NCBI GenBank assembly: GCA_016871715.1
Contig: VHCO01000007.1
Span: 1 to 64,000, forward strand
Direction: 5' to 3'
Source of the DNA: Verrucomicrobiota bacterium
GTDB taxonomy: Bacteria > Verrucomicrobiota > Verrucomicrobiia > Limisphaerales > J093
Length of the DNA stretch: 64,000 bases
Shown here: positions 1-14,565 of the stretch, one piece after another
Numbering within the stretch: the stretch's first letter is position 1
Layout: every line of letters begins with the position of its first letter
Notes under the pieces: model-generated
What the model was told of the DNA's origin: nothing
Database searches by the model: none
Seen by the model: only the letters and a program-made list of their open reading frames with translations
Program-made: the position numbers and the translations under genes

Positions 1-590
1 ACGGCCGATGACTGAGGCGTCGCAGAGCTCCGCCCTCCAGAGCGGCAAGGGCCGATGACTGTGGACTTGGAGGGGCGAGTTCCACGAGCCCTCGGGCGCA
101 AGTCCGCGAGGCGAACGTCGCAGGCCGAAGGGGAACCAAGGCGTCGCGGAGCTCCGCCCTCCAGAGCGGCAAGGGCCGATGACTGTGGACTTGGAGGGGC
201 GAGTTCCACGAGCCCTCGGGCGCAAGTCCGCGAGGCGAACGTCGCAGGCCGAAGGGGAACCAAGGCGTCGCAGAGCTCCGCCCTCCAGAGCGGCAATGGT
301 CGATGACTGAGGCGTCGCAGAGCTCCGCCCTCCAGAGCGGCAATGGTCGATGACTGAGGCGTCGCAGAGCTCCGCCCTCCAGAGCGGCAATGGTCGATGA
401 CTGAGGCGTCGCGGAGCTCCGCCCTCCAGAGCGGCAAGGGTCGGTGACTGAGGCGTCGCGGAGCTCCGCCCTCCAGAGCGGCAAGGGTCGATGACTGAGG
501 CGTCGCAGAGCTCCGCCCTCCAGAGCGGCAAGGGTCGGTGACTGAGGCGTCGCGGAGCTCCGCCCTCCAGAGCGGTGACGGTCGATGACA
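1..590. repeat. Tandem array of a 47-bp repeat, nine copies, cut by the window edge
   Basis: Copies beginning with ggcgtcgc start at 16, 140, 264, 311, 358, 405, 452, 499 and 546. From 264 on the period is exactly 47 bp; the first two periods are 124 bp because each carries an extra segment starting ttggaggggcgagttccacg. Every unit contains the self-complementary core GCGGAGCTCCGC or a one-base variant. The arm of the long segment is roughly the reverse complement of the short unit, so the long form could fold into a hairpin. A second array of the same family lies at 11769-12033. No protein is claimed here even though the repeat is open in some frames. Confidence 0.93.
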
Positions 591-609
591 ATGGAGGGGA
601 GGGGGGGAA

Positions 610-1569
610 TCAGGTGGCCGGCTGCGCAGGGCCAGATCGCGTTGTCTTGAGTTTCGCCCATCTGGCTCGGGCGGCCTGGATCAGTCTGCGCCGGGCCGCT
701 GCAGAGAGAGTCTGGCGGCGCGGGCGCGCGGGTTTTCGGGTCTTCTTGGGGCGCGGCGGAGTGGCGGGCCTGGACGCGGCCTTCCGAGTGACCGGTGGGG
801 CGTTTTGGGTGACAACGAGCAGAGTGGGCACTGCCGGAGGGGCAACCTGCGTCGAGTCCAATTCGATGCCGAACACGGCGCCGATTTCGCTCTCGGCCAG
901 TTCGGGACCGGCCGCGGGGGTCTTGGCGGCGAGATCGCCTGCTGTGGCGGCTTGGGTGATGAGTTCTTCGTGATTGACGGCGCGCAGGGTGAAGAGCAAC
1001 TCGGGGCTCGCATCCAGGCGCGCGCCCACACCGTAGAGCACGGCGGCGACGTGTTTGCACATGGTCGCCCAGTCCGGACAGGAACACTTGAGCTTGATCT
1101 CGGTGGGCTCGGGAAACAGGCCGGTCTCCTTGCGCGTGAGGATGCTCATGACGTGGTCGGAGAAGCGGCCTTGCAGCAACTCGACCAGCGATCCGATGCC
1201 ACCGGCACATTCGGCGCAGAGCTTCTTCCACTTGGCCTTGGCGGCGGCGGCGATGCCGATGCGAACCTGGTACAGCTCCGAGCCGCTGACGGTCGCTTCG
1301 ATTTCGCCCGGGCGGATGTCGAGGTGGACGACCGAGCCGTTGCGCACGTAGGTACGGCCGCGCGGCAAACGGTTCGCGTAATCCATGTAAGACTCGAGAT
1401 GGTCGCACCAGGCCTTGCCCCAGAACGTGCGAGCGATGGTGCGGCCTTCGAGGCGGACCGGTTTGATGACCTTGCCTTTCTTGGCCAGCTTGGCCATCTC
1501 GCGCTCGGCTTTGCGGCGGCGCTCGGCCAGCGGGACGTAGGGGCGGAATCCGAAAGAGTACCAGCTCAT
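610..1569 (-). CDS. SWIM zinc finger protein paired with SNF2 helicase
   Basis: The 319-residue protein carries a SWIM-type zinc motif, CSCPDWATMCKH (CxC then CxH), around residues 160-172, which is typical of small partners of bacterial SNF2 ATPases and is thought to bind DNA or protein. The N-terminal half (SFGFRPYVPLAERR, then FWGKAWCDHLESY) matches the usual architecture of this family. The last 80 residues are Ala/Pro/Arg-rich and basic, probably disordered and nucleic-acid binding. It starts 14 bp after the helicase stop on the same strand, so the two are very likely co-transcribed. The exact substrate is unknown. The stop lies close to the repeat array. Confidence 0.88.
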   Translation of the reverse strand: MSWYSFGFRPYVPLAERRRKAEREMAKLAKKGKVIKPVRLEGRTIARTFWGKAWCDHLESYMDYANRLPRGRTYVRNGSVVHLDIRPGEIEATVSGSELYQVRIGIAAAAKAKWKKLCAECAGGIGSLVELLQGRFSDHVMSILTRKETGLFPEPTEIKLKCSCPDWATMCKHVAAVLYGVGARLDASPELLFTLRAVNHEELITQAATAGDLAAKTPAAGPELAESEIGAVFGIELDSTQVAPPAVPTLLVVTQNAPPVTRKAASRPATPPRPKKTRKPARPRRQTLSAAARRRLIQAARARWAKLKTTRSGPAQPAT

Positions 1570-1583
1570 AGTCGTGGCGGTGT

Positions 1584-4358
1584 TTATACCTCAGTCGCCC
1601 GGTTCAAGTCGAGCGCGACGAAGCGCAACAGTTCGTCGTTGTTCATCTCGGTCAACAGCTTCTCGCCGCCGCCTTCAAGCAATTCCGTCGAGAGCGATTT
1701 CTTGTCCTCGATCACCTGGTCGATGCGCTCCTCGATGGTGCCGCGGCAGACGAACTTGTGGACGAGGACGTTTTGCTTCTGGCCGATGCGGAAGGCGCGG
1801 TCGGTGGCCTGGTTTTCGACGGCGGGATTCCACCAGCGGTCGAAGTGGATCACGTGCGCGGCCTGCGTCAGGTTCAAGCCCGCGCCGCCGGCTTTCACGG
1901 TGAGCAGAAAGAACGGTGGACCGTCGTCGCGTTGGAAGGACTCGACCAATTGGCGCCGCTGGGCCACGGCGGTGCCGCCGTGCAACACCAAACCGGGCCG
2001 GCCAAAGACGTTCTCGAGAAAGGCCGCCAACGGGTCGGTGATCTCCCGAAATTGGGTGAAAACCAGCGCCTTTTCCTGCCGCTCGGCAATTTCCTCGGCC
2101 AACTCGCGCAGCCGGGCGAATTTGCCGCTCGCCTCGGGCGCGTAACCGCCGTCGCCCGACCACTGCGAGGGATGATTGCAGATTTGTTTGAAGCGCATGA
2201 TGAAGGCCAGCACCAGGCCCTTGCGCTGGATGCCGTCGGCGTTCTCGATCGCCTCGGTCAACTCGGAGACGGCCTTCTGGTAGAGCGCCGCCTGGGTCTT
2301 GCTCAGCCAACACCATGCGCGCACCTCGGTTTTCTCGGGCAGATCGGCAATGACCTGCTTGTCCGTCTTGAGCCGGCGCAGGATGTAGGGCCGCGTGAGC
2401 GCGCGCAGCGGGCCGTAGTCGGGCTGCGGAGCATCGTCGCGGGCACGAATGAATTTGGCGAACGCGCTGGCCGAGCCGAGGAGGCCAGGATTCAGGAAAT
2501 CGAAGATGGACCACAGATCGCTGGCGCGGTTCTCGACGGGTGTGCCGGTCAGGGCGAAACGGGCGGTGGCCTTGAGTTCTTTGACCGCGCGTGCCTGGCG
2601 CGTGCCGGGGTTCTTGATGGCTTGGGCCTCGTCGAGGATGGCCAGGCTCCACTCGCGCTGCCGCAGCGTCTCCAACCGTGCCACCATGCCGTACGTCGTG
2701 ATGACGAGATCCGCTTCGCGTCCGGCGGACGAAGCCAGAGACGCCCGCGGGTCGTCGGTTTCCGAGGGGTGAAGGATGAGAAACGTCAGCGACGGGGTGA
2801 AGCGCTGGATTTCCGCGCGCCAGTTGGCCAGCAAGGAGGCGGGCACGACGAGGATGCTGGGGATGGTTGCGGCCTCGTGCTTGCGCCGTAGCAACAGCGC
2901 CAGCACCTGCAAGGTCTTGCCCAAGCCCATGTCGTCCGCCAGGCAGCCGCCCAATCCCAGGCGCGCCAGGAACCCGAGCCAGTTGACGCCCACGGCTTGG
3001 TAAGGACGCAACTGCGCCAGGAGGCCGTCGAGGTTCCCCGTGGTCTCCAGGCGCGCCGGGTCGCGCAGTTCGGCCAGCGCCGCCTCGAGCCATTGCCCCG
3101 GCTGAATGCCCGTCCACTCGCGGTCGACCCCCAGCCCGGCGCCGTCCGCGGCTCCGGCGCCGGGTTGGAAGCCGGCGATCATCCGCATCCCCTCGAAGAA
3201 CGTCACGCCGTCCTGGCGCGCCATGTGCTCGACCTTTTTCCAGTGCGCCAGCGCGTCATTCAGCTTTTGCGGATCGACCTCGACCCATTGCCCGCGCACC
3301 AACGCGAGGCCGTCGGCCGCATTTAAGAGCCCTTGCCATTCCGCCTCGGTCAACGGTTGGCCATCCAGGGTGGTCTCGACCGAGAAATCCAGCAGCGTGT
3401 CCGCGCCGAGGCCCGCGCCGCGGCCCTGGCCGATGCGCACGTTGATGCGCGGACGCGGCGGCCGCCCGCCTTTCCACCAATCGGGCAGGCGCACGATGAC
3501 GCCCGCCGCTTCGCACAGCGGCACGTCTTTGAGGAACCGATACGCCTCGGCCGGCGTCCAGGGCAACGGCTTGAAGATGCGGTTGCTGTCCACCAGTTCG
3601 TGGATGAAGGCGCTGGTCGAGGCGGCCTTCTGGACGGGGGACAGCAGGTTGAGGAGGGCGGCCTTGTTGCCGGCGCCGGCGTATTCCTGGAGCGCCCGGC
3701 CCAAGGGCAGGTGCTGCACGCGCGACTGGCTCGAAATCCGCGACGCGTAACTGGCCATGAAGGCGAACGGATGCGTGGGGTGCCGCCGGTTTTCCGCGAG
3801 ATGAAACGTCACCCGACCCACCATGCGCCAGAGCGGATGGCTTGCTCGTAACCACGCCCCCACGCCCTGGGGATGCCGAAGCGCCTCGCCGCGCACCACG
3901 ACATCCAGCTCACCCCAGAGCTGCGCCAGGACCTCCGCGTTCAGGTACTCGCCCCCGCGCATTGGCGGGGCCGTGTCGGCCAGGGCGCGCAGCTCGGTCT
4001 GGGCCGGCGCCGGGAGCGGCGCCAGTTCTCGGGCCGACTCGAGTTCTGGCAGGTGGCACAAGCGGGTGAGATAACTGCGAGCCAGTTCGCGCCACCAAGC
4101 CGCCGCCGGCGGCAGCGCCGTGTTCAACTCGCGCGTCCCGAGGTGTAAGAGACCGCGCGCCGGCGAGTCGGCGAACGCGGTGGCTAGGCGCTGCCCGGCG
4201 TCCGCGTCTAAGCAGGGCACAGGCGCCGCGGCATCCCGGCCACTCGCCGCACTGGAGTCGCCCACGACCGATGGCTGGCGGTCCGCCGACTCGCCGCTCG
4301 GCGGGAGTTGTTCCACGCGCAGCAGCCCGTGCGGTGTCAGGAAGACATCGGAGAACAT
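1584..4358 (-). CDS. SNF2-family DEAD/DEAH-box helicase (Snf2/Rad54-like ATPase)
   Basis: The 924-residue protein is a Swi2/Snf2 double-stranded DNA translocase. Visible motifs are Walker A DDMGLGKT near residue 475, the DEAQ box (DEAQAIKN) near 575, motif III LTGTPVENR just after, and the C-terminal helicase motifs GGAGLNLTQA and DRAFRIGQ near residues 820-860. The N-terminal 450 residues are the SNF2-associated region found in bacterial family members. It is encoded immediately upstream of the SWIM protein, the usual bacterial pairing. The role (chromatin or transcription remodelling, repair) cannot be read from sequence. Start taken at the first ATG of the frame, giving family-typical length. 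Confidence 0.93.
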   Translation of the reverse strand: MFSDVFLTPHGLLRVEQLPPSGESADRQPSVVGDSSAASGRDAAAPVPCLDADAGQRLATAFADSPARGLLHLGTRELNTALPPAAAWWRELARSYLTRLCHLPELESARELAPLPAPAQTELRALADTAPPMRGGEYLNAEVLAQLWGELDVVVRGEALRHPQGVGAWLRASHPLWRMVGRVTFHLAENRRHPTHPFAFMASYASRISSQSRVQHLPLGRALQEYAGAGNKAALLNLLSPVQKAASTSAFIHELVDSNRIFKPLPWTPAEAYRFLKDVPLCEAAGVIVRLPDWWKGGRPPRPRINVRIGQGRGAGLGADTLLDFSVETTLDGQPLTEAEWQGLLNAADGLALVRGQWVEVDPQKLNDALAHWKKVEHMARQDGVTFFEGMRMIAGFQPGAGAADGAGLGVDREWTGIQPGQWLEAALAELRDPARLETTGNLDGLLAQLRPYQAVGVNWLGFLARLGLGGCLADDMGLGKTLQVLALLLRRKHEAATIPSILVVPASLLANWRAEIQRFTPSLTFLILHPSETDDPRASLASSAGREADLVITTYGMVARLETLRQREWSLAILDEAQAIKNPGTRQARAVKELKATARFALTGTPVENRASDLWSIFDFLNPGLLGSASAFAKFIRARDDAPQPDYGPLRALTRPYILRRLKTDKQVIADLPEKTEVRAWCWLSKTQAALYQKAVSELTEAIENADGIQRKGLVLAFIMRFKQICNHPSQWSGDGGYAPEASGKFARLRELAEEIAERQEKALVFTQFREITDPLAAFLENVFGRPGLVLHGGTAVAQRRQLVESFQRDDGPPFFLLTVKAGGAGLNLTQAAHVIHFDRWWNPAVENQATDRAFRIGQKQNVLVHKFVCRGTIEERIDQVIEDKKSLSTELLEGGGEKLLTEMNNDELLRFVALDLNRATEV

Positions 4359-4635
4359 CGTCAGCGCGACCTCGAGTTCATGGCGCCGGCGACAACGCGG
4401 CCGCCGCTGTCAGCATCGCGGCCCGCGAGAGGGTTCGCAAAACACGCGCCAGCGCCACAGGCGTGGTTACCATGGAGTCGAGGCTACGCTTCGCTGGCGG
4501 CGATTGCACGCGGTTTGGCGCGGACCGTTCGCCGTGGCTGCCCGGAGCGCCGATGGACGTATAGCAGTCGCCGTCCCGGTCGACAGCCGGGCTATGGGTG
4601 TTGGGTCGGCCGTCTGCCGACTCCGCCCGCCGGTT

Positions 4636-5310
4636 TCACCGCCAGGGCAGATCGCCCGGCTGCAGCTCCCTGAGACGGATGTTCCGGAGCGCGATGGGCA
4701 AGCCGTGATCCTGGAAGCCGATCCACCCCGTCCGCGGCCGCCGGGCCAGTTGGCCGCCGCCGGAAAGATCGTGGGCATTCACGTTCACGTCATTCAGCAT
4801 GACCACAATCTTGTGGTCATAATGGGTGACTTTCATCGTGTTCCATTCCCCAGCGGGTTTGGCAGCAGGCCGATGGGGTTTGAGTCCGGGAATGATGCCG
4901 CCGGCGTCGTGGTCGGTGAGGGAGGCAGCGGACTGGCGGCTGGGCGAATCGTAGATTTGGACTTCGATGCCCTGGGCCACTGGGTCGTTACGGTCGCCGA
5001 CCCGAAAATAGAAGCCGCTGTTGCCGCCCGGTTCGAGCCGGTAATCGAACTCGATCTCGAAGTCGGTGTATTGCTGTTTTGACCACAGATAGGCCGACCA
5101 ACGCGACCACCCGGATTCGCCGGGACGCGGCTGGAGCGCGGCGACGCCGTCCTGCAGCACCCAGTTGCCGGTGGTAGTCCACCGATCGTCCAAGCGCTCG
5201 GTTTGGGCAGACAACAGTGGAACCCACGCTTTGTCCTGGGAGGTCTTTTCCGCGGCGATCGCCGCGGCGCCGAGCAGGCCCGTCAAGGCGATCAGGGAGA
5301 AGGTCTTCAT
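4636..5310 (-). CDS. Secreted DUF1080 (3-keto-disaccharide hydrolase-like) protein
   Basis: A signal peptide ([20 protein letters not shown]) is followed by one DUF1080 domain of about 200 residues with the family hallmarks YTDFEIEFDYRLEPGGNSG and the closing strand TGWIGFQDHG. DUF1080 has a concanavalin A-like fold; some members hydrolyse 3-keto-glycosides, but most are uncharacterised and very common in Planctomycetes and Verrucomicrobia. It lies 11 bp downstream of the DUF1579 gene, so the two probably form an operon. The signal-peptide DNA is nearly identical to that of the neighbour. Upstream on this strand, 4359-4635 (between SNF2 start and this stop) holds nothing I recognise. Confidence 0.88.
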   Translation of the reverse strand: MKTFSLIALTGLLGAAAIAAEKTSQDKAWVPLLSAQTERLDDRWTTTGNWVLQDGVAALQPRPGESGWSRWSAYLWSKQQYTDFEIEFDYRLEPGGNSGFYFRVGDRNDPVAQGIEVQIYDSPSRQSAASLTDHDAGGIIPGLKPHRPAAKPAGEWNTMKVTHYDHKIVVMLNDVNVNAHDLSGGGQLARRPRTGWIGFQDHGLPIALRNIRLRELQPGDLPWR

Positions 5311-5321
5311 GATCGTCTCCC

Positions 5322-5939
5322 TTAGCGGGCGCCTGTCTTGGCGGTGCGCGTGTAGGTGATCTCGAGGTGCTTCCCGAATTCCTTCGCGCCGGCGGGCTTG
5401 CCGAACATCGTCAGGATCATCCGGTCCGGTCCGCTCTCTTCCAGGACCATCCGATGCAGCATCGTGCTGCCGTCGGGCATTTTTTGTTCACCGTTATAAG
5501 TGATGGCGTTGCCCTGTTTCTTGCCGTAGCTCATGAAGATGCCGGTGCTCATGCTGTCCATCCACGCCATGACGTATTGCTTCTCCATGGTGTCATACGC
5601 CGTGACGCCAAAGCCCTCGAACTTGCCCATCGGGCTTTCCGAGGAGTATTCCTGGACCAGGTAGCGGCCATCTAGGATGGCGCGCAACGTGGCCTTGCCT
5701 TTCCCCTCGAACGCCTGCGCCCCCATCGTGTGCTTCTCGACCGCGGTCCAGTCGCCTGCGCTCTGCTGGAACGCCGCGTGCGGCTCGCCTTTGGCGTTCA
5801 GTTTCATCCATTGTTCCATCATAGCCGCATGGTCCATCTCGGCGGCAGTCCCGCCCGGCTGCCGCTCGTCCGCGGCCAGCGCCATCGCGCCGAGCAGGCC
5901 CGTCAAGGCGATCTGGATCAGGGACCATCTCGTTTTCAT
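5322..5939 (-). CDS. Secreted DUF1579 family protein
   Basis: A signal peptide beginning [18 protein letters not shown] is followed by a DUF1579 domain: a [20 protein letters not shown] strand pair, the core [20 protein letters not shown], and [19 protein letters not shown]. The family is a lipocalin-like beta barrel of unknown function, widespread in PVC bacteria. Start placed at 5939, where the signal peptide begins; an in-frame ATG nine codons upstream is possible but would spoil the signal. It is 205 residues long. The gene leads a two-gene unit with the DUF1080 gene, and 5940-6048 is the divergent promoter space towards the regulator remnant. Confidence 0.86.
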
Positions 5940-6048
5940 AGGTCGTATCGGGTTTTGTTGTGGCACGTGCTGGCCAGGTTGCAGGTTGCGGTTGGTAGGC
6001 CGATGGGCATCCCCAGGGAGCAGACCGGCCGAACCAACAGGTCATTCC

Positions 6049-6645
6049 ATGGATGACGTTAGCAGCTCTATTTCCAGAGGCAAGCGGGAATCCTGGTCTG
6101 CCGCCCGGTGCAACGCTATGCCAACGGATGTACTCGATTATGTGCCGGACGGGGTGTTCACGGTGGACACCGAATGGCGGATTACGTTCTTCAACCGGGC
6201 TGGCGAGCAGATCACCGGTATCCCGCGGCAGGACGCGCTCGGCCGTCGTTGTTGCGACGTTTTGTTCGACCTGCTGCCCGTGGTGGCCGCCAGCGACAGC
6301 ACGGTCTTGATCGAAGGCTCCAGCGGCACCGGCAAGGAGTTGGTCGCCCGCGCCATTCACGAACGGTCGCCCCGCAAGGCCCGCCGGTTCGTGGCCGTCA
6401 ACCGCGGTGCGTTGCCGGGCACCTTGCTTGAATCCGAGTTGTTCGGCTACAAGACCGGCTGCACCTCAACACCCGGAACGGCCAGCTCTGCCGCAGCGTC
6501 CTGGTCGAGCACGAGCAGCCGCGGCACGGCCGAGAGTAGGAATGCGTCCAGCAAGTGCCCCAGCATCGCATGCATCGCGTCCTTGGCCGCGCTAGTGCCG
6601 GGCGGTGCCCACACCGAGCTTGCCGGCAAATTCCCAATCCGGTAG
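6049..6645 (+). pseudogene. Remnant of a PAS-sigma54 interaction domain regulator
   Basis: The first 60 codons are a good PAS domain ([16 protein letters not shown], then [20 protein letters not shown]). It joins abruptly to a sigma-54 activator AAA+ domain beginning [19 protein letters not shown] (Walker A) and running through the [11 protein letters not shown] and [10 protein letters not shown] segment (GAFTGA-loop region). After about 6458 the frame turns into Ser/Thr/Ala-rich nonsense and stops at 6645; the rest of the AAA+ domain and the HTH are missing. The linker between PAS and AAA+ is also shorter than normal. An intact protein of this kind would activate sigma-54 promoters; this copy cannot. 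The sequence after 6458 may derive from an unrelated gene on the other strand. Confidence 0.8.
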
Positions 6646-6683
6646 GGTGCCTGGCGAGTTAACTGAATCTGCGATTATCTGCG

Positions 6684-6932
6684 ATGCACACCACCTACCG
6701 AATGAGCGCGGCGGACCTGGACGAGCGGTTCCTGGCCAGCGTCAAGTCGCTGTTCGGCGCCAGTGAAATCGAGATCTCCATTTGCGGTCCCGCCCAAGTC
6801 GAGGAGGACGAAACGGCCTACTTGCTGAAATCCGAGGCCAACCGGCGGCATTTGCTGGAAGCCCTGGCCGATGTGGAAGCCGGACGGAATCTGGTGACCG
6901 TGCCGCCGGGTGAGCTGGCCACCATGAAATGA
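6684..6932 (+). CDS. Antitoxin of a YefM/RelB type, partner of YoeB-like toxin
   Basis: The 82-residue protein has the C-terminal toxin-wrapping pattern of this antitoxin group: DETAYLLKSEANRRHLLEAL followed by a short tail. The N-terminal part (ADLDERFLASVKSLFG, then EIEISI) would form the DNA-binding and dimerisation section that represses the operon. Its stop overlaps the toxin start (ATGA), the usual translational coupling that makes antitoxin ahead of toxin. I infer antitoxin function mainly from the pairing; N-terminal similarity to classical YefM is weak. Confidence 0.8.
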   Translation: MHTTYRMSAADLDERFLASVKSLFGASEIEISICGPAQVEEDETAYLLKSEANRRHLLEALADVEAGRNLVTVPPGELATMK

Positions 6933-7189
6933 GGTCTGTCGTGTTTACCGCGACGGCGCTGAAGGACTTCGTGGAATGGGCGCGCCTGGATGCCAAACTC
7001 CACCAGCGGATTGCCACCTTGATCTTTGACATCCTGCGCGATCCCTTCCAAGGCCTCGGCAAACCGGAGCCGCTGAAGCACCAGTTCAAGGGCTGTTGGT
7101 CGCGGCGGGTCAATGACGAGCATCGGTTGGTTTATCGGATTTCAGATCAGGCCATTTACATTCTGTCCTGCCGGTACCATTACGAGTAA
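6929..7189 (+). CDS. yoeB: YoeB/Txe-family mRNA interferase toxin
   Basis: The 86-residue protein matches Txe/YoeB over its full length: start FTATALKDFVEWARLD, middle DPFQGLGKPEPLKHQFKGCW, and the catalytic end HRLVYRIS then CRYHY. YoeB toxins bind the ribosome A site and cleave mRNA; the HRLVY histidine/arginine and the terminal C-x-YHY region are part of the active site, and all are present here. It is coupled to the upstream antitoxin by a 4-bp overlap. No obvious disruption, so the module is probably functional even though both sides are decayed genes. Confidence 0.93.
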   Translation: MRSVVFTATALKDFVEWARLDAKLHQRIATLIFDILRDPFQGLGKPEPLKHQFKGCWSRRVNDEHRLVYRISDQAIYILSCRYHYE

Positions 7190-7245
7190 TTGCAGGCTGC
7201 GGAGCTGACAGACCAGCAGCCACGCACAATCCCGCCATCCCTCCG

Positions 7246-7455
7246 ACCGTTCTGCTCGTTGCCCACTGCTTGCTGGCGCTGCTGGCCGCACTGATGGGCG
7301 AGGCGCCGCCTGGCTCGTTCAAGTTGACGCACACCCGGCTGCAAGTCGCCGTGAGTTTTGTGGCCGGCTTGATGCTCGGCCTGGCGCTGCTGGGACTGCT
7401 GCCGCACGCCAGTCACGAACTGCATTCGGTGCTCGACGGTCTGGCCCTGTCGGCG
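7246..7455 (+). pseudogene. Remnant of a ZIP-family metal transporter
   Basis: In frame from about 7246 the translation gives VLLVAHCLLALLAALMGE, then AVSFVAGLMLGLALLGLLPH, typical of the first membrane helices of ZIP zinc/iron permeases. It then passes at SHELHSV directly into LDGLALSAV, which in intact ZIP proteins belongs to the central histidine helix, so the intervening loop and helices are missing. After 7455 the sequence is a dispersed palindrome element. There is no upstream start and no downstream half. Confidence 0.6.
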
Positions 7456-7585
7456 GTACGGCAGACCAGAATGTCTGCGCTACGAGGCCGCCAGGCGGCC
7501 TGGACGGGTAGCAGGGCGTTGAGCCCGTCCTGCCGATGGGTCCGGATCGGCGGACGCCCTGCCGACAAGAATGTCGGCGGTCTTG
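7446..7585. repeat. Cluster of dispersed short palindromes (REP-like)
   Basis: Two related palindromes flank a third. One is the GTCGGCGGTACGGCAGACC..GAATGTCTGC type near 7448-7480. Another is GCCGACAAGAATGTCGGC at 7561-7578. Between them, GGACGGG at 7502-7508 pairs with CCCGTCC near 7524-7530. The GCCGACAAGAATGTCGGC element recurs exactly at 12194-12211, and CAGACAGGAATGTCTG at 10832-10847 is a related form. The stretch 7586-7723 holds a short minus-strand fragment that I could not assign (it reads VTAQMRASDQRVVIAGNGE). Confidence 0.75.
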
Positions 7586-7723
7586 TAGTCGGCGTGCGCC
7601 TCGCCGTTGCCCGCGATGACGACGCGCTGGTCGGAGGCGCGCATCTGCGCGGTGACTGCGCCCTTGGGCTGGGTGGTGGGCTGGCGTCGAACACCCCGGT
7701 GGCGGTGGGCAGGCGACCGGTCA

Positions 7724-9673
7724 TCACCGCGGCGCGCTCCAGTCCAGCGGCGGCTTGAGGTTGACCCGATCCGCCGGCGTCGCTGGGCGGTTGCCTGGGA
7801 TCAACTGCACGGCCAGGTCCAGAATGCCCGAGGTGGGGGCGGTTACGGTGAACGCCGTCATGACCGTGCCGCGATTTGGCGAATCCCATTCGTTCTTTGG
7901 CTTTGCGGTGTCGAGCAACGCCCAGGTGGCGGCGGTGGGTTGCAGGATCCGAAGGGTCAGGGAGACATCCTGCTGCCGCAGTTCCAAAGAGCGGGCGCCG
8001 GGCTGGACGGCTGTCGCCGGCGTCACCATCCCCCAGCGCACGGACACGCCGGGCTGCAAGCCGGTCAGACGATCGCGCACCAGCACCTCGCCGGTGGGCA
8101 GCAGAGCGATGCCACGATGCGCGGTGGCCGCTTGGCCGGCATAGACCGCGCTCATGTCCACCACCGAGTGCGGGAAGTCGGGCGAGGCGGAGAAACGGAC
8201 GATGCTGGCGTGGCCGGCGGCCTGTTGCAGTTGGTCGTCAATCACCAGCGTGTTGTGGCTCAGGCTGCCCTGGCGAAAGACGGTCCAGCGCTGCGACTCC
8301 TGCGCCATGCTCCAGAAGTTCATCCCACGGGACTCGATCCGATGATACCCCTCTGCGCCGAGATCGGTCGCCCACCGAACCCCCTCAGCGTCCAACACGA
8401 AGGAACCGATGTCCATGTGCCCGTGCGGGCCGGAGGGCGACCCGGCCTTGATCCCTACGAACACGGCCTTCGGATCCGTCCACGAGCTGCGGTGCAACGC
8501 GATGGGCACCATGCAGTCGCTGGTCCAGTGCAAGGGCAAACGCGCGACGTCGGCGTGCGAGTCGTCTTGGAGCCAGAGCAGCAACAGGGGCAGGAAACGG
8601 TCCGATCCGGAGATGCCGTCAGGGCGCGCGGACAATCTTCTACGCATGGGCGCGGCTTCGCCGGTTAACCATTCCGGCCGCGAATAGCGGGCGGCAAACC
8701 AATGCACGGCCGGCTCCACACCGCGTCCCGAACCGCCGTCGGCGTAGTTGAAGGTCAATCCAGACGGGCCGGTCGTCAGCGCCAGGTATGCGCCGGTCTG
8801 ATCGAAGCCCGGCGCCTGGTCGAGTCCGAAGCTGCTTCCCAGCGCGGATTCAAGGATGGCGATGAGCAGGACGTTGAAGGTCGAGCCGTAAGACCAGTAG
8901 CCGGGGCCCTCCGGGTAGCTGCCCTTGGGCGCAAAGGCGGCCATCGAGCGCGGCACGTTGGCGAGCGCGCGATGCACGGTCTTCGCCGCCGCCTCGCGGT
9001 CGTCCTCGAGGACCGATAGCGCGCCGGCGACCATGCCGGCATGGCAGACCTGGCCCCAGTTGTTGGCCGCGCGCGTCCAGCCGTTGTGTGGGGTGTCCAG
9101 CGGAACGCGAACGCCTTTCGACAGGATCGCAGCCCGAATGGTGTCGCGGGCTGCGGGATCGAGCTGGTCGTAGAGCCAGTCGTAACCCATGCCCAGCGCC
9201 AAGGTCATTTCTCCCACGTCCAGGAAGTGACCAGGATTCCAGTCGGTGAACGCCGCCGCCGCCAGCATTTCGCGCGCGGCGCGGTCGGCATAGGCCCGGT
9301 TGCCGGTCAAATGGTATGCCATGGCCAGAACGATGACGCGGCGAACCGCACGGCGCGATTCGCCCAGCAGGCGGCGGCCTTCGAGCTGCCGGGCGATGGG
9401 GGCGGCCTCGATCATGGCGTCGGCATCCCGCCGCACCACGTCGGCGATCTCGCGCAGGCGGGCATTGGCGGTCACGCGGTCCCGCAATTGACGGACCTGG
9501 TCCGGTTTCATCAGCAGGCGGGGACGCGGAAACTGGGTGCGATCCATTAAGGCGCGCACCTCCGCTTCGCTGATGGAAGGCGGGTAGGTGGTTGGGATGG
9601 CGGCAACGGCCGGCAGGCTGCCGACGAGGCATGTCAAGCCGAGGCCAAGGGCAACGAGAATTTGATTTGTCAT
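7724..9673 (-). CDS. Secreted heparinase II/III-family polysaccharide lyase
   Basis: The 649-residue protein begins with a signal peptide (MTNQILVALGLGLTCLVGSL). Its alpha/alpha-toroid half includes FPRPRLLMKPDQVRQLRDRV, GMGYDWLYDQLDP and HNGWTRAANNWGQVCHAGM (the Asn-rich active-site region of alginate/heparin lyase-like toroids). The C-terminal beta-sandwich has the heparinase II/III signature SPSGPHGHMDIGSFVLDA with the metal or substrate histidines. Such enzymes cleave uronic-acid polysaccharides in the periplasm or outside the cell; the substrate is not predictable. The start at 9673 is chosen because the reading frame further upstream encodes an unrelated ATPase remnant. It is intact while its neighbours on both sides are broken. 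Confidence 0.88.
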   Translation of the reverse strand: MTNQILVALGLGLTCLVGSLPAVAAIPTTYPPSISEAEVRALMDRTQFPRPRLLMKPDQVRQLRDRVTANARLREIADVVRRDADAMIEAAPIARQLEGRRLLGESRRAVRRVIVLAMAYHLTGNRAYADRAAREMLAAAAFTDWNPGHFLDVGEMTLALGMGYDWLYDQLDPAARDTIRAAILSKGVRVPLDTPHNGWTRAANNWGQVCHAGMVAGALSVLEDDREAAAKTVHRALANVPRSMAAFAPKGSYPEGPGYWSYGSTFNVLLIAILESALGSSFGLDQAPGFDQTGAYLALTTGPSGLTFNYADGGSGRGVEPAVHWFAARYSRPEWLTGEAAPMRRRLSARPDGISGSDRFLPLLLLWLQDDSHADVARLPLHWTSDCMVPIALHRSSWTDPKAVFVGIKAGSPSGPHGHMDIGSFVLDAEGVRWATDLGAEGYHRIESRGMNFWSMAQESQRWTVFRQGSLSHNTLVIDDQLQQAAGHASIVRFSASPDFPHSVVDMSAVYAGQAATAHRGIALLPTGEVLVRDRLTGLQPGVSVRWGMVTPATAVQPGARSLELRQQDVSLTLRILQPTAATWALLDTAKPKNEWDSPNRGTVMTAFTVTAPTSGILDLAVQLIPGNRPATPADRVNLKPPLDWSAPR

Positions 9674-9814
9674 GGGGATGGAGATGCAGTGATTGAACGT
9701 GTGTTTGGAAATCAGCGCCGACGGACGGCGGCGGCCTGGGCATCGACTTTGCCCCGGTGGTTGAGCTGTACGGAATCGAGCCACCCGGTTTCCTCGGCGT
9801 CGGCTGAGTCGCGC

Positions 9815-9955
9815 ATCCAACTGAGAGTCGTCGAAGAACGGGGCGACTCGCTGCACGGCTCCGCGAATTTGCCCATAGGCCTCCTTGTGTTTCTCACGCA
9901 AAACGAAGAGAAATGCCGCGAGATTCGACCCGTCCGGCCTCTGGGGGTAGTTCCG
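9815..9955 (-). pseudogene. Remnant of an AAA-family ATPase
   Basis: A 47-codon stretch reads NYPQRPDGSNLAAFLFVL, REKHKEAYGQIRGAVQRV and APFFDD, which matches a central segment of RecF/SMC-like AAA ATPases of the AAA_21 type. There is no Walker A before it or Walker B after it, and the frame then runs straight into the heparinase gene. The remaining DNA to 9680 is open in a second frame (ADAEETGWLDSVQLNHRGK) that I cannot assign. A decayed fragment. Confidence 0.5.
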
Positions 9956-10080
9956 GTGATGGCATGTCGGGTTCCCTTTACGCCGATGCGCCCTGATTGT
10001 CGAATTCCGAATGCGCTTTCGCCCGCCGCACGTCCACCGCCGTGATGAGCGAATGGCCGTAGGTGACCTTGGCCGGCCCG

Positions 10081-10781
10081 TCAGGGCCGGTTCCCCTGAT
10101 TCAGCCACACATCGATGCGCGGGGTGTCCCAGGTGTAGGGTTTAGTCACGATGTCGAGTTTGCCGTCGCCGTTCACGTCCGCCAGCCGGCTGTCGTGATT
10201 GCCGATGCCCACCGAGAGTTCTTGCGTCCGAAACTTGCCCTGGCCGTCGCCGTAGAAGATCCAGGCGGTGCATTTGTCCTTCGGTCCCGGCGTGTGCATC
10301 TCGGCACAAAAGAGGTCCAGGTGTCCGTCGCCGTTGAGGTCCCCGGTTTCGAGCGTGTGGCCGGAGAGCACGTCGCGGTCGAGTAGCTTGCGGCGGGTCC
10401 AGGACTTTGGATCGGCCGGATCGCTTGGGCACTCGAGGAACCAGAGCGGGCCGTTGCCGTCGCCGGGCGCCACCGCGATCTGCGCGACTTTGCCCGGCTG
10501 AAAACGCCCCGCCACGATGCGCCCTGGATGATCGGTCACTTGGATGGGCGTGAACCTGTTACCGCTTGCGTGCGTTCGGCGATGACGATGTCCGCCGCGC
10601 CGTCCCTGTCGATGTCGAAGACGACGCAGGCGGTTTGTTGTTTGCCGCCATTGGGCACGGGCAAATCGCCACTCCTGCTGGAAAGATGTTTCCAGGTCGG
10701 GGTGGGGACGCCGGCGATAGCGCCGGCAAGTGAAGCTGCCAACAGCGCAGTGCCGGTGAGGAGCATGGGGATGGTTTTCAT
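10081..10781 (-). pseudogene. VCBS/FG-GAP repeat protein, broken into two frames
   Basis: The 5' part (start 10781) has a signal peptide (MKTIPMLLTGTALLAASLAG) and an FG-GAP calcium-type repeat, VVFDIDRDGAADIVIAERTQ, then runs out of frame and stops at 10536. The 3' part, in a different frame, has two more FG-GAP repeats: LETGDLNGDGHLDLFCAEMH and LADVNGDGKLDIVTKPYTWD, and ends with a normal terminus. Intact homologues are much longer beta-propellers, so both a frameshift and a deletion of intervening repeats are likely at about 10536-10545. Confidence 0.75.
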
Positions 10782-10828
10782 GTTGGGTTGGTTCGGATCG
10801 AGAGCATCGACGGAGCGCTGGAAGCGTA

Positions 10829-10850
10829 GCGCAGACAGGAATGTCTGAGC
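10829..10850. repeat. Dispersed palindrome CAGACAGGAATGTCTG
   Basis: The palindrome CAGACAGGAATGTCTG lies at 10832-10847, just upstream of the broken VCBS gene, and is a variant of the GCCGACAAGAATGTCGGC family at 7561 and 12194. The rest of 10782-11000 holds no recognisable gene. Confidence 0.6.
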
Positions 10851-11000
10851 GCCCGTCACCATGCGTCGCAAGATGTTATTTCCTCCCTATCGCTGGTTTG
10901 TCCAGGCAATAGACGACTGCGTTGTCCCACACCTGGTCTGCGATCGGCCCTGAGCGGCGGGGCCTTGGCTTCTTGGGGGATCGCGGGCACCCTGCGCGCC

Positions 11001-11764
11001 ATGCACAGCCTTCTCCCCTGTTTCGTGGGCATCGCCCTGGCCGCGGCCCTGTCCGCTGGTCGGGCAAACACAACACCATCAGTTGCCCGGCCGGACATCA
11101 CTTCTACGAAGGCCGCTGGCTGCGCGATCCCCAATACCTGGACGACTATGCGGTGTTCTGGTTTCGCAAGGGCGGCGAGCTGCGGCGCTACAGTTTCTGG
11201 GCGGCGGACGCGCTCTGGGCGCGGCACCTGGTGCAACCCAATGCCGCGCTGCTCGCCAACCTGCTCAACGGACCGCCCCAAGAGCACATCAGTGTGCGCG
11301 ATTACTTCGCCACGCTGAAGACCTACGCCAAGTCCCACCGCTTCACCCGCGACGATGGCCGCGTGGTGCCGTGGATTGATGAGAACCTCAATCCGTTCAC
11401 CGGCGATTGGATTTCCCGCACCCGGCTCAAGGCGTGGAAGGACGGCACGTGGGACACCGGCAAAGGTGGCCCGGAGCGGGGCAAAGATTACAACCACTCC
11501 ACGTTTTGCGACCTTGTCATCCGCGGACTCGTCGGCCTCCGTCCGCGCGCCGACCGTCAAGTGGAGGTCCATCCACTCGTGCCGCCGGGGGAGTGGGATT
11601 GGTTCTGCTTGGACGGCATCGCTTATCGTGTGCGCACGCTCACCATCCTTTGGGACCAGACCGGGGCGAAGTATGGCAAGGGCGCCGGCATGCGCGTCTT
11701 TGCCGATGGCCAAGAAATCGTCCAGGCACCGAAGCTACAGCGGGTGATGGGCGAGTTGCCCTGA
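11001..11764 (+). pseudogene. MGH1-like (trehalase-type) glycoside hydrolase, internally deleted
   Basis: The ATG at 11001 opens a clean signal peptide, MHSLLPCFVGIALAAALSAG, that then goes out of frame near 11065. From there another frame gives about 230 residues resembling the C-terminal end of mannosylglycerate hydrolase/MGH1-like (alpha/alpha)6 glycosidases: SCPAGHHFYEGRWLRDPQYL, RRYSFWAADALWARHLV, YNHSTFCDLVIRGLVGLRP and VEVHPLVPPGEWDWFCLDG. So the N-terminal leader and the C-terminal end survive, joined out of frame, and the central domain is missing. The gene is dead. Confidence 0.72.
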
Positions 11765-11768
11765 GCCG

Positions 11769-12033
11769 CTGTTGGAGGAGCGAGTTCCACGAGCGCCTGT
11801 TGGAGGGGCGAGTTCCACGAGCCCTCGGGCGCAAGTCCGCAAGGCGGACGCCGCAGGCCGAAGGGAAACCGAGGCGTCGCGGAGCTCCGCCCTCCAGAGC
11901 GGCGACGGTCGATGACCGAGGCGTCGCAGAGCTCCGCCCTCCAGAGCGGCAATGGTCGATGACTGAGGCGTCGCAGAGCTCCGCCCTCCAGAGCGGCAAT
12001 GGCCGATGACCGTGGCGTCGCGGAGCTCCCATG
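11769..12033. repeat. Second array of the 47-bp repeat, four copies
   Basis: Copies start at 11873, 11920, 11967 and 12014 (47-bp period); the last is cut after about 20 bp. The array is preceded by two copies of the segment containing gagcgagttccacgag / gggcgagttccacgag (11775-11820) and by the same long leader found at 61-142 and 189-265. Sequence identity to the first array is very high, so the family is either young or still being homogenised. Confidence 0.92.
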
Positions 12034-12193
12034 TAACAGCTACGCAGCTTCCTCGATCGGAACCAGTCCGTGATCCAGTTCTTGCGCCGGCCCACGACCG
12101 GCTCCGCTGGTTGCGTTGCTCTCCAGCCTGCCGGATCGCGGACGTTCCAGCCCGCTGTCCGATCCATCCATCCATCCCACAGCCGGATGCCCT

Positions 12194-12220
12194 GCCGACA
12201 AGAATGTCGGCGGTACGGCA
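12194..12220. repeat. Dispersed palindrome GCCGACAAGAATGTCGGC
   Basis: An exact copy of the palindrome at 7561-7578, followed by the same cggtacggcagac tail seen near 7453. It marks the downstream edge of the hydrolase remnant at 12226-12575. The stretch 12034-12193 has no gene I can recognise. Confidence 0.75.
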
Positions 12221-12225
12221 GACAG

Positions 12226-12575
12226 GCATCGACCTTGCCGGGTTGAGCCAACACCTGCCCCCAAGGCGGGGGGTGACAGCCAAGGATGGCAAGCCGCAGA
12301 CGATCGCGCGACAGGCTGAGGCCAAACAGAACGCTCGGCGAGAGATTCTCCATCAGCAGGGTGCTGTAGCCACGCGTGAAACGCTTCCACACCCACGCCC
12401 GGGTGAAGGCGGCGTCATGGATGAAGATCTTCCAGCCAATGTGGTCGGTATCCAGCAACACGACCTTGTGGCCATCGGCCGCGGGCGGCGCGGAGGCCCA
12501 AGGGTCCTTCGCTTGATCCCAGCGGACTGTTGAGCGCTCCAATCGCTCGCGGATGATGGAGGCCAGGCAGTACTG
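12226..12575 (-). pseudogene. Fragment of a secreted cellulase-like (DUF6298-type) protein
   Basis: The reading frame gives RERLERSTVRWDQAKDPWAS, then PPAADGHKVVLLDTDHIGW, then WVWKRFTRGYSTLLMENL, resembling the conserved core of large secreted TIM-barrel proteins in which ADGrKVVl.DTDH and WVWksFtRG recur. Neither end of the protein is present: the upstream side meets the apnL-like gene and the downstream side ends in a dispersed palindrome. Family assignment is from memory of the motif and is tentative. Confidence 0.45.
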
Positions 12576-12585
12576 CGACGAGGAC

Positions 12586-14565
12586 TCACGAACGGCGGCT
12601 AAACTGCACGAAGGCATAGGGCGGAAGTGCGGCCTCGATAACGCCCGAGACCTTCTGACAGGAACCCCCGGCAAAGGCGGGAGGCGCCTCGATGTGCCAC
12701 GCGCCCCCGCCAGCCGGTGTGGCCGGCGACCGTTCCAGACCGCTGGCCGTGAACGGACCAGCGATGCGGACCTGCTGAACGCCTGCTGACAAGTTCGCCA
12801 GCAAGACCCGTTGCAGGGCCTGGTGGGAATCAAAGAGCGCAAGGCCCGCCAGCTCGGCGAGTTGGATCGCAGCCACGCCGGCCCACCGCTTGCGCCCCGA
12901 CAGACTGGCCAGAACGTGGAAGAGCGGGAACACGCCTCCGGCAGTCGAGGGGAACTGGTTCGGAAGAGGCGACCCCGTGACGCGCTCCATCACACCGCGC
13001 CAGCCCGTGGTTTCGTACCAGGTGACGCTCTCGACTTCTGCGGTTGCCCAAGCGACAAGGCTGCCCAGGGTCCAAGCGGCTCCGAAGTGGCTGAGTTGAC
13101 GTGGATCCACTTGGGGCGGCAGTTCGCCCGATGCCGGCGCGGGCGCTGGACCGGTCGCCACAGGATTGAACCGCTGCTTCAGGGTCACCGGCGTGACCGC
13201 CAGCGGCCGTCCCCGAGCGAACGCCCGCGCGGATCGGGCGGTCGCGGCCTGCGCCTCCAAGGTCTCCATGACGGAGAGGTGATCGGACGCGTGGACTTGT
13301 GGATTGATGGACCAGAAGAGGAAATCCGCTTCCTTCGCCGCCAACCGACCGAGCCCCTGCTCGCGGTTAAGCTCGCAGAAATTGCAGTCGCTGCCCGCCC
13401 CCACGGGCACGTCCGCGCCGCGCAGGAGCGCTCGCACACGCAGCAGGGTCGCGGGACTGGTGGCGGCTTCGCCCTCGCGGAGCGCCAGGACGCGCGCCAG
13501 CGACGAAGCGTGCCGGCCCATTGCCCGTGCCACGTTGTCGGCCTCCACTTCGCCCTGGCGTGGCAGATGAACGGCCAGTTCCAGTCGCGCCCCCATCTGC
13601 TCCGCCTCGGCGGCAGCCTGCTCGAGCCTCGTTGGCCAGCTTGTGGTCGCCAACCGCAAATCCAACCGCAGATGGGCCGGCCCAAGCTCGCTCAGGGCAG
13701 AGACCTCGTGCGGATCCAACGGCTCGCCGTGACTCGCGATTCCCAAGCCGACGGCCGGCAAGCGCGTAGTCGGTGCCTCTGGAATCTCCAGCGTGAGCAT
13801 ACCGGACGGTTGCGAGACGACCTCGCCTCCCGAGGTTGGGACCTGTGTCGCGCCTGCCAACCGCAGAGTCACCGCTTGGCGAATCCGGCTGCCTTCCGCG
13901 ATGGCCACCGGAAAAGCCAGCCCTAGAGGCGTGCAGTAGGTCTTGAAGCTGGCATCGGTCCAATTGCGTTGGTCCTCCATCTCGAAGACGTCGCCCTCGA
14001 ACTCAAGCTCCGCCCATAGCCCGCCACCGACCTCGTGGGCCAGGCCGGCCAAGTCCTGGAAGCTGCCGCGGCCAATGATCTGCGGGTTGATCGACTCTGG
14101 AAACCGGCCTGCCACGGCACGGCCGTCCGCGCGCCGCTGTCGGGCCGGCGCGCCGGCGCATTCACGGATGGGATGGAGCACGCAAAAGCCGATGCGGTTG
14201 CGGAGGAACGCGGTCTTCGCTGCGCCATCGAAATCGTAGCGGAGCGTTCCGTCCGCAGCGCCGCAGAGAGACCCGTGCCAGACGAAGTGAATGTCTCCCT
14301 GTCGGTGCACCGACTCGAATTCGATGCGGAACGACTGCGCTTTGACGTCCCGCAGCGTCTCCCGAACGACCCCGGGCGGCGTGCCCCAGTTGCGGTCGCG
14401 CACCGCGGCATAGATGCCGCGCAAGACTTCTCGTTCGCCTAGCTTGATCCGCCGCACAAAGCCGGTGCTGGGATCGTAGAGCATCGTGAGCGGGCCGGCG
14501 CGGAGCGGAGCCAGGCACGACGGCGGCTCCGGTTGGCCGTAAGTCAAGAAGGTCTCGGTGAGCAT
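12586..14565 (-). CDS. apnL: D-apionate lactonase (ApnL-like)
   Basis: The 659-residue protein matches the D-apionate lactonase architecture: an N-terminal beta domain beginning LRAGPLTMLYDPSTGFVRRI, GEREVLRGIYAAVRDRNWGT; a TIM-barrel middle (LPAVGLGIASHGEPLDPHEV, LSELGPAHLRLDLRLATTSW, ADVPVGAGSDCNFCELNREQ, FLFWSINPQVHASDHLSVME); and a C-terminal beta domain. ApnL opens D-apiono-1,4-lactone to D-apionate, the second step of oxidative apiose catabolism. It is the last gene of the operon, 3 bp after an ABC permease. Together with ApnO-, OiaC-, OiaK-, RLP- and ApsD-like genes in the same strand run, the assignment is strong. No signal peptide, so cytoplasmic. Confidence 0.85.
   Translation of the reverse strand: MLTETFLTYGQPEPPSCLAPLRAGPLTMLYDPSTGFVRRIKLGEREVLRGIYAAVRDRNWGTPPGVVRETLRDVKAQSFRIEFESVHRQGDIHFVWHGSLCGAADGTLRYDFDGAAKTAFLRNRIGFCVLHPIRECAGAPARQRRADGRAVAGRFPESINPQIIGRGSFQDLAGLAHEVGGGLWAELEFEGDVFEMEDQRNWTDASFKTYCTPLGLAFPVAIAEGSRIRQAVTLRLAGATQVPTSGGEVVSQPSGMLTLEIPEAPTTRLPAVGLGIASHGEPLDPHEVSALSELGPAHLRLDLRLATTSWPTRLEQAAAEAEQMGARLELAVHLPRQGEVEADNVARAMGRHASSLARVLALREGEAATSPATLLRVRALLRGADVPVGAGSDCNFCELNREQGLGRLAAKEADFLFWSINPQVHASDHLSVMETLEAQAATARSARAFARGRPLAVTPVTLKQRFNPVATGPAPAPASGELPPQVDPRQLSHFGAAWTLGSLVAWATAEVESVTWYETTGWRGVMERVTGSPLPNQFPSTAGGVFPLFHVLASLSGRKRWAGVAAIQLAELAGLALFDSHQALQRVLLANLSAGVQQVRIAGPFTASGLERSPATPAGGGAWHIEAPPAFAGGSCQKVSGVIEAALPPYAFVQFSRRS

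Follow-up and report, generated by a model that had tools for sequence, protein, structure and literature searches.

A GGAG-tagged family of REPIN-like repeats in Verrucomicrobiota and its probable link to RAYT transposases

Results

Two arrays of inverted arms

The window, the whole 64,000-nucleotide stretch analysed, covers positions 1-64000 of the 70,916-base contig C7. The draft genome to which this contig belongs has 8.58 Mb in 554 contigs and is 94.5% complete. The window carries two arrays of a short repeat (TRF scores for the window repeats 569, 577 and 275) composed of two kinds of 24-nt arm, R (pattern GGCGTCGC[AG]GAGCTCCGCCCTCCA) and F (pattern TGGAGGGGCGAGTTCCACGAGCCC). Array 1 opens with an R arm and a spacer, runs on through F, middle, R, spacer, F, middle and R, and ends in six R-only units at a 47-bp step. 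Its R arms start at 16, 140, 264, 311, 358, 405, 452, 499 and 546, and are thus spaced by 47 or 124 bp. As position 1 of the window is the end of contig C7, this array is cut by the assembly. Array 2 (11769-12033) starts with a degenerate F arm, which is followed by F, middle, three R arms and a truncated R. The features are as follows.

1-590, minus strand: array 1, two F-middle-R REPINs, one leading R arm and six R-only 47-bp units, cut by the contig end
16-39, minus strand: R arm, stem GGCG/CGCC, loop TCT
68-163, both orientations: complete REPIN 1, F arm 68-91 (plus), middle 92-139, R arm 140-163 (minus), TGGAG at both outer ends
192-287, both orientations: complete REPIN 2, F arm 192-215 (plus), middle 216-263, R arm 264-287 (minus)
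311-334, minus strand: R arm of an R-only 47-bp unit, array 1
358-381, minus strand: R arm of an R-only 47-bp unit, array 1
405-428, minus strand: R arm of an R-only 47-bp unit, array 1
452-475, minus strand: R arm of an R-only 47-bp unit, array 1
499-522, minus strand: R arm of an R-only 47-bp unit, array 1
546-569, minus strand: R arm of an R-only 47-bp unit, array 1
11773-11796, plus strand: degenerate F arm that opens array 2, stem GAGC/GCGC
11801-11896, both orientations: complete REPIN 3, F arm 11801-11824 (plus), middle 11825-11872, R arm 11873-11896 (minus)
11920-11943, minus strand: R arm of an R-only 47-bp unit, array 2
11967-11990, minus strand: R arm of an R-only 47-bp unit, array 2
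12014-12029, minus strand: truncated fourth R arm that closes array 2, read from the sequence

The original prediction, made from the sequence of the window, counted nine copies at 1-590, and all nine R arms were located. It counted four more at 11873-12033, of which three are complete (11873, 11920 and 11967) and the fourth is the truncated arm at 12014-12029. An exact palindrome had been ascribed to each copy, but GCGGAGCTCCGC is present in only 5 of the 12 complete copies, the other seven having GCAGAGCTCCGC. The 124-bp form does add an arm that is nearly the reverse complement of the short unit, as had been proposed. The 47-bp unit, however, is not the basic form. The basic unit is a 96-bp REPIN-like pair of inverted 24-nt arms with the TGGAG tags outermost; the 124-bp period is this arm pair plus flank, and 124 minus 47 leaves 77 bp, about an F arm plus the middle. 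Because F-middle-R is what recurs elsewhere, we regard the 124-bp unit as the fuller form and the 47-bp one as reduced. Arrays 1 and 2 have their spacer and middle in common and therefore share a local origin.

The repeat flanks the 0.6-12 kb region on both sides, but the description of that region as decayed is only partly correct. Two ORFs between the arrays are open, one of 924 aa for an SNF2 helicase, next to a SWIM ORF, and one of 794 aa that is heparinase-like. The array pair around the region is one of many such arrays, and a link to the region is not needed. Note that the window ORFs at 5677-6645 and 10922-11764, with partial matches to a sigma-54 activator and a glycoside hydrolase, are probably gene remnants.

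Covariation defines a small hairpin

Each arm consists of TGGAG, a 4-bp stem, GA, 2 bp, a 3-nt loop, 2 bp, GA and the returning stem, 24 nt in all. When species were compared, F and the reverse-complemented R proved to follow a single design, with GA opposite GA. The outer stems seen are GGCG/CGCC, GGGC/GCCC and GGTC/GACC, and the inner pair is GC/GC or GT/AC. A scan in which the stems were free but had to pair around GA/GA gave 15 matches in the window versus none for any of five other mismatch pairs. The corresponding values were 188 versus 6, 6, 3, 4 and 10 in 40 loci of the source genome, most of them picked because they bear arrays, and 173 versus 3, 4, 4, 6 and 24 in 96 other-species loci picked by an exact R match. 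Among 58 distinct anchor-picked arms, 246 of 348 stem cells were paired, compared with a mean of 165 and a maximum of 187 in 500 shuffles. Judged on sequence, the stem changes in the arms are compensatory. The predicted fold matched the arm design for all five natural arms folded as DNA and for all three folded as RNA. As the folding energies of the arms were no better than those of shuffles, the case for the hairpin rests on covariation rather than on stability; the 111-nt stretch at 190-300 likewise folded no better than its shuffles.

A T precedes GGAG in a fraction of 0.94 (other species) and 1.00 (source genome) of distinct copies picked by GGAG. Conservation starts at this T, with nothing comparable upstream in other species: the base preceding TGGAG is not conserved, and a search for a conserved cut-site dinucleotide outside the tag found none. 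As a palindrome within the 20-40 bp range of REPs, with high copy number and a mostly intergenic location, the 24-nt arm qualifies as a REP. Its foot is GGAG preceded by T rather than GT[AG]G, so it is REP-like with another tag and not a GTAG REP.

Neighbouring arms no more than 150 bp apart with their tags outside, the arrangement of REPINs and BIMEs, number 65 pairs in the source genome and 36 elsewhere; the tags-inside count of 62 in the source genome is due to the tandem arrays. In 63 of the 65 pairs here the stems are unequal, a GGCG arm being joined to a GGGC or GGTC arm, and this is also true of 35 of the 36 pairs elsewhere, in which only the partner arm is informative because the loci were chosen for their GGCG arm. 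The sole GGCG|GGCG pair among the tags-outside pairs belongs to the other-species set, and a GGCG|GGCG pair is present in Ereboglobus.

RAYT genes lie between REPINs in other species

The original prediction named a REP-type family among its options and RAYT-like transposases as the test, and in other species we found RAYT genes flanked on both sides by the element. At locus L341, which came from 20 weak matches, a REPIN stands on either side of an HUH/Y1 gene (153 aa aligned), the distances to the aligned part being 10 and 22 bp; the HUH motif of this RAYT reads MPDHIH. Homologs of 63-72% identity are found in genomes G050, G048 and G447 and as a second copy in G046, all REPIN-flanked, the G447 copy and the second G046 copy being broken. 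A Kiritimatiellae RAYT (G051, 43%) is flanked by GGTC/GGCG arms. REPtrons (a RAYT with REPs on both sides) are thus present in G046, G050, G048 and G051, with broken copies in G046 and G447. A clustering of ORFs also contained the RAYT cluster. When scanned with the NCBIfam model REP_Tyr_transpos (NF047646, cut-off 80), the RAYTs of G046 (85.1 bits) and G050 (92 bits) passed and those of G051 (76.8) and source-genome contig C5 (partial, 69.6) fell below, so that two of the four scanned pass. The closest solved chain is TnpA_REP (4er8).

GA/GA REPs lie within 350 bp of 14 of 52 RAYT homologs, 10 headed by GGAG and 4 by GTAG, and none was found near the other 38. Several REP-bearing genomes match this RAYT only weakly (e.g. 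G427/G044, with 27 REPs). In a tree of 48 of the 52 homologs (pieces shorter than 100 aa, L392 and L194 among them, were left out) 11 of the 12 REP-flanked rows fall in one 15-row clade together with four unflanked rows (support 96/93). The REP labels change five times on the tree versus a shuffled mean of 11.4, a clustering that near-copies aid. The REP beside the G448 RAYT reads GGTAG-GGC-GA-GAC-TCT-GTC-GA-GCC; its body recurs beside the G041 RAYT headed by GGGAG, and a similar body headed by TGGAG lies beside the second RAYT of G051. Because RAYTs lie between such REPINs and related RAYTs adjoin GTAG REPs of the same GA/GA design, we assign the repeat to a REP/RAYT family tagged GGAG, not GT[AG]G. 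A switch of the guide tag, thought to be nearly invariant as GT[AG]G, among related RAYTs, after which the TGGAG form became a phylum-wide mobile family, is the reading to which we lean.

The best matches to Pfam PF01797 were considered as the cognate enzyme and rejected as other Y1 classes. This model matched 56 times in the source genome and also hit other genomes, 17 of 17 in one search and 12 of 12 in another. Among the 30 loci L213-L242 a TGGAG REP was found only at L240, where it lies 1.4 kb away and goes with a second RAYT, and L243-L272 had no TGGAG REP at any locus. L104 has an F-only array some 190 bp away from a gene for a 360-aa protein of the long Y1 class; this was taken as a coincidence because 14 other aligned loci of that class lack such an array. 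These long Y1-domain proteins of the source genome (G000, e.g. L085-L099) are about 381-401 aa and carry YCIMSNH. Their diverged copies number in the dozens and often lie at contig ends; 14 aligned copies had no conserved flanks.

The source genome also has a GTAG-type sister family of 79 copies with up to three mismatches (30 exact, control 0), and the RAYT on C5 has three GTAG-type REPs with the GA/GA body upstream. None of the seven near-full-length RAYT matches of this 94.5% complete assembly has a GGAG REP beside it, and hence the window REPINs look orphaned in this assembly or served in trans. The GGAG REPINs might be moved today by the C5 RAYT acting across tags, since that protein falls in the 15-row clade and the REPs next to it have the same GA/GA body. 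However, only GTAG-type REPs were detected beside it, and according to the text of PMC8266576 the TnpA_REP of E. coli did not tolerate any change of GTAG; we consider such cross-tag activity unlikely. Elsewhere in the genome, RAYT matches on C122 (L399) and C324 (L395) have nearby perfect-hairpin GTAG/GTGG candidates, possibly further REP families.

Dispersal within the genome and across the phylum

The original prediction held that a lack of other copies in the genome would point to a local duplication only. Other copies are present: the 124-base unit gave 124 BLAST matches (E up to 0.001), R arms with up to two mismatches number 156 (reversed-pattern control 0) and one arm pattern has 186 exact matches. 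Because many arrays sit at contig ends, the copy number is underestimated. At 21 array loci the arms recur, and spacer, middle and period differ from array to array. Clusters lie inside crudely called genes in 13 of 47 cases here and 20 of 100 in other species, the rest being intergenic or at locus edges. Reduced single-arm arrays of about 48-52 bp are also found on C374, C464, C309 and C455. Taken with those of the window, the R-only and F-only arrays have periods of 47-52 bp despite differing spacers.

In the phylum, TGGAGGGNNGAGCTCYGCGANNCC matched 12 of 387 sampled genomes and 9 of 198 genera (control 0), and an exact R scan of a species-genome collection returned at least 96 stretches. 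The titles among the R matches listed were Kiritimatiellae, Chthoniobacterales, Udaeobacter, Ereboglobus, Verrucomicrobia, PVC group or unassigned. Among 40 genomes, the source and its family and order relatives, exact or near R was found only in the source genome. The cultured Ereboglobus sp. PH5-10 carries a single pair, on NZ_JAQFIP010000009.1. To judge from these matches, the GGAG-tagged family has a patchy distribution among distant Verrucomicrobiota. No match to the repeat was obtained in plasmids, phages or viral contigs.

Some REPIN sites are common to several species. At one site in a soil genus a REPIN or its remnant is present in four of nine aligned congeners and absent from five; at another, two of six aligned species have the REPIN and four have conserved sequence instead. 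A third site (3519) was left out as coding sequence conserved in all species, not a REP. The flanks were too diverged to give a clean empty site, and no transposition event was seen in the congener comparison. The suggestion that the repeat is mobile is backed by dispersal, sharp ends, presence and absence between congeners and linkage to RAYTs, but not by an observed event.

Conservation of some sites between species, the mostly intergenic location and the identical fold of the arm as RNA would also suit a transcribed RNA element, such as a terminator or an mRNA 3'-end hairpin, with a cellular role and no mobility. The RNA-coding element of the original prediction is nevertheless not supported: gene orientations at the sites in other species (tandem 35, divergent 11, convergent 12, from crude gene calls) follow those of all intergenic gaps (200, 58 and 57) without a bias to gene ends, RAYT genes sit between the pairs, and Rfam gave no match up to E 1 over window positions 1-14000, so that a known structured RNA was not found there. 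We regard this reading as very improbable. Slippage or unequal exchange could also have duplicated the stretch in tandem without any mobile element. This purely local reading agrees with the private spacer, middle and period of each array and with those shared by the two arrays of the window, and it stands as the origin of the arrays. It is refuted as the origin of the arms, which recur at dozens of unlinked sites across the genome and also in other classes of the phylum, and as a complete account it deserves almost no credence.

Discussion

The repeat is very probably a REPIN with a GGAG tag that a RAYT, a transposase of the HUH/Y1 type, moved in trans in the form of single-stranded DNA and that was later duplicated in tandem. 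By analogy with TnpA_REP and the SBW25 REPINs, as treated in the text of PMC8266576 and PMC3116915, the RAYT would bind the folded single-strand arm, and it would use GGAG as the guide to cut and insert the REPIN. GGAG keeps A3G4, which in the TnpA_REP model of PMC8266576 selects a CT cut, and the same cut would be predicted here. The REPINs of the source genome may have been seeded by a RAYT that is now lost, unassembled or of the GTAG type. Tandem duplication of the REPIN plus flank, the mode of growth given for ordered REPIN clusters in the text of PMC3116915, could then have multiplied the copies into arrays with private spacers, and loss of the F arm and middle would yield the 47-bp units. 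The unequal stems may disrupt the long arm-to-arm duplex and still let each small hairpin form.

Like the GTAG REPs and their RAYTs described in the text of PMC2817692, PMC3733652 and PMC6006769 (TnpAY1 class 2), the arms are short, intergenic and palindromic, and their 5' tag sits at the foot of the hairpin; they likewise form inverted pairs and clusters and flank RAYT genes. The arms differ from GTAG REPs in having GGAG within TGGAG, a tandem GA/GA opposition in a 4+2 bp stem and pairs that almost always have two different stems. The unpaired bases inside the stem recall the bulge of the E. coli REP. In E. coli BIMEs, REPs alternate in orientation and are separated by two alternating kinds of linker. 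The same alternation of REPs and linkers is seen here, but arm sequence and tag differ and the linkers are private to each array. As with the Pseudomonas fluorescens SBW25 REPINs (text of PMC3116915), the unit is an inverted REP pair with a variable middle, whereas the tag and stem design are others, the source-genome copies are mostly in arrays and a cognate RAYT was not found in that genome. The CGTC-tagged REPs discussed in PMC3733652 are likewise short and palindromic and form inverted pairs whose partners are often unequal. Their stems measure 8-9 bp and the text of that paper gives no known transposase for them, whereas here the stems are 4+2 bp and a RAYT is linked. Membership in the CGTC superfamily was rejected, as the stem is 4+2 bp and CGTC occurs only within the R stem and is absent from F.

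Opitutus terrae is rich in GTAG repeats according to the text of PMC3733652. The REP finder described in the text of PMC6006769 requires GTAG or GTGG at the foot, and therefore tag-shifted families would escape such a search. The string 'ggag' has no occurrence in the main text of PMC3733652 or PMC6006769, and GGAG was not met as a REP tag in the text, as distinct from figures and supplements, of PMC3733652, PMC2817692, PMC6006769, PMC8266576, PMC3116915 and PMC12306157. Related RAYTs with the same REP body and differing tags allow a direct test of the link between tag, cut site and protein. If the tag switch is true, they form a natural series for reading the guide code of single-strand transposases protein by protein. 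The nearly obligate unequal stems bear on why heterodimers prevail, a question that the text of PMC3733652 leaves open, in that two swapped stem pairs would spare the hairpins and break the arm-to-arm duplex.

Other repeats were seen in these genomes. G155 had no match to the arm pattern and no such arm in 200 kb; its loci L303-L312 contain a different repeated palindrome, TTTCACGTAATACGTGAAA-like, in 8 copies per 200 kb with both strands counted. In 11 genomes of one soil genus a very abundant repeat of about 88 bp occurs in both orientations (L115:366-453 and L115:4224-4307).
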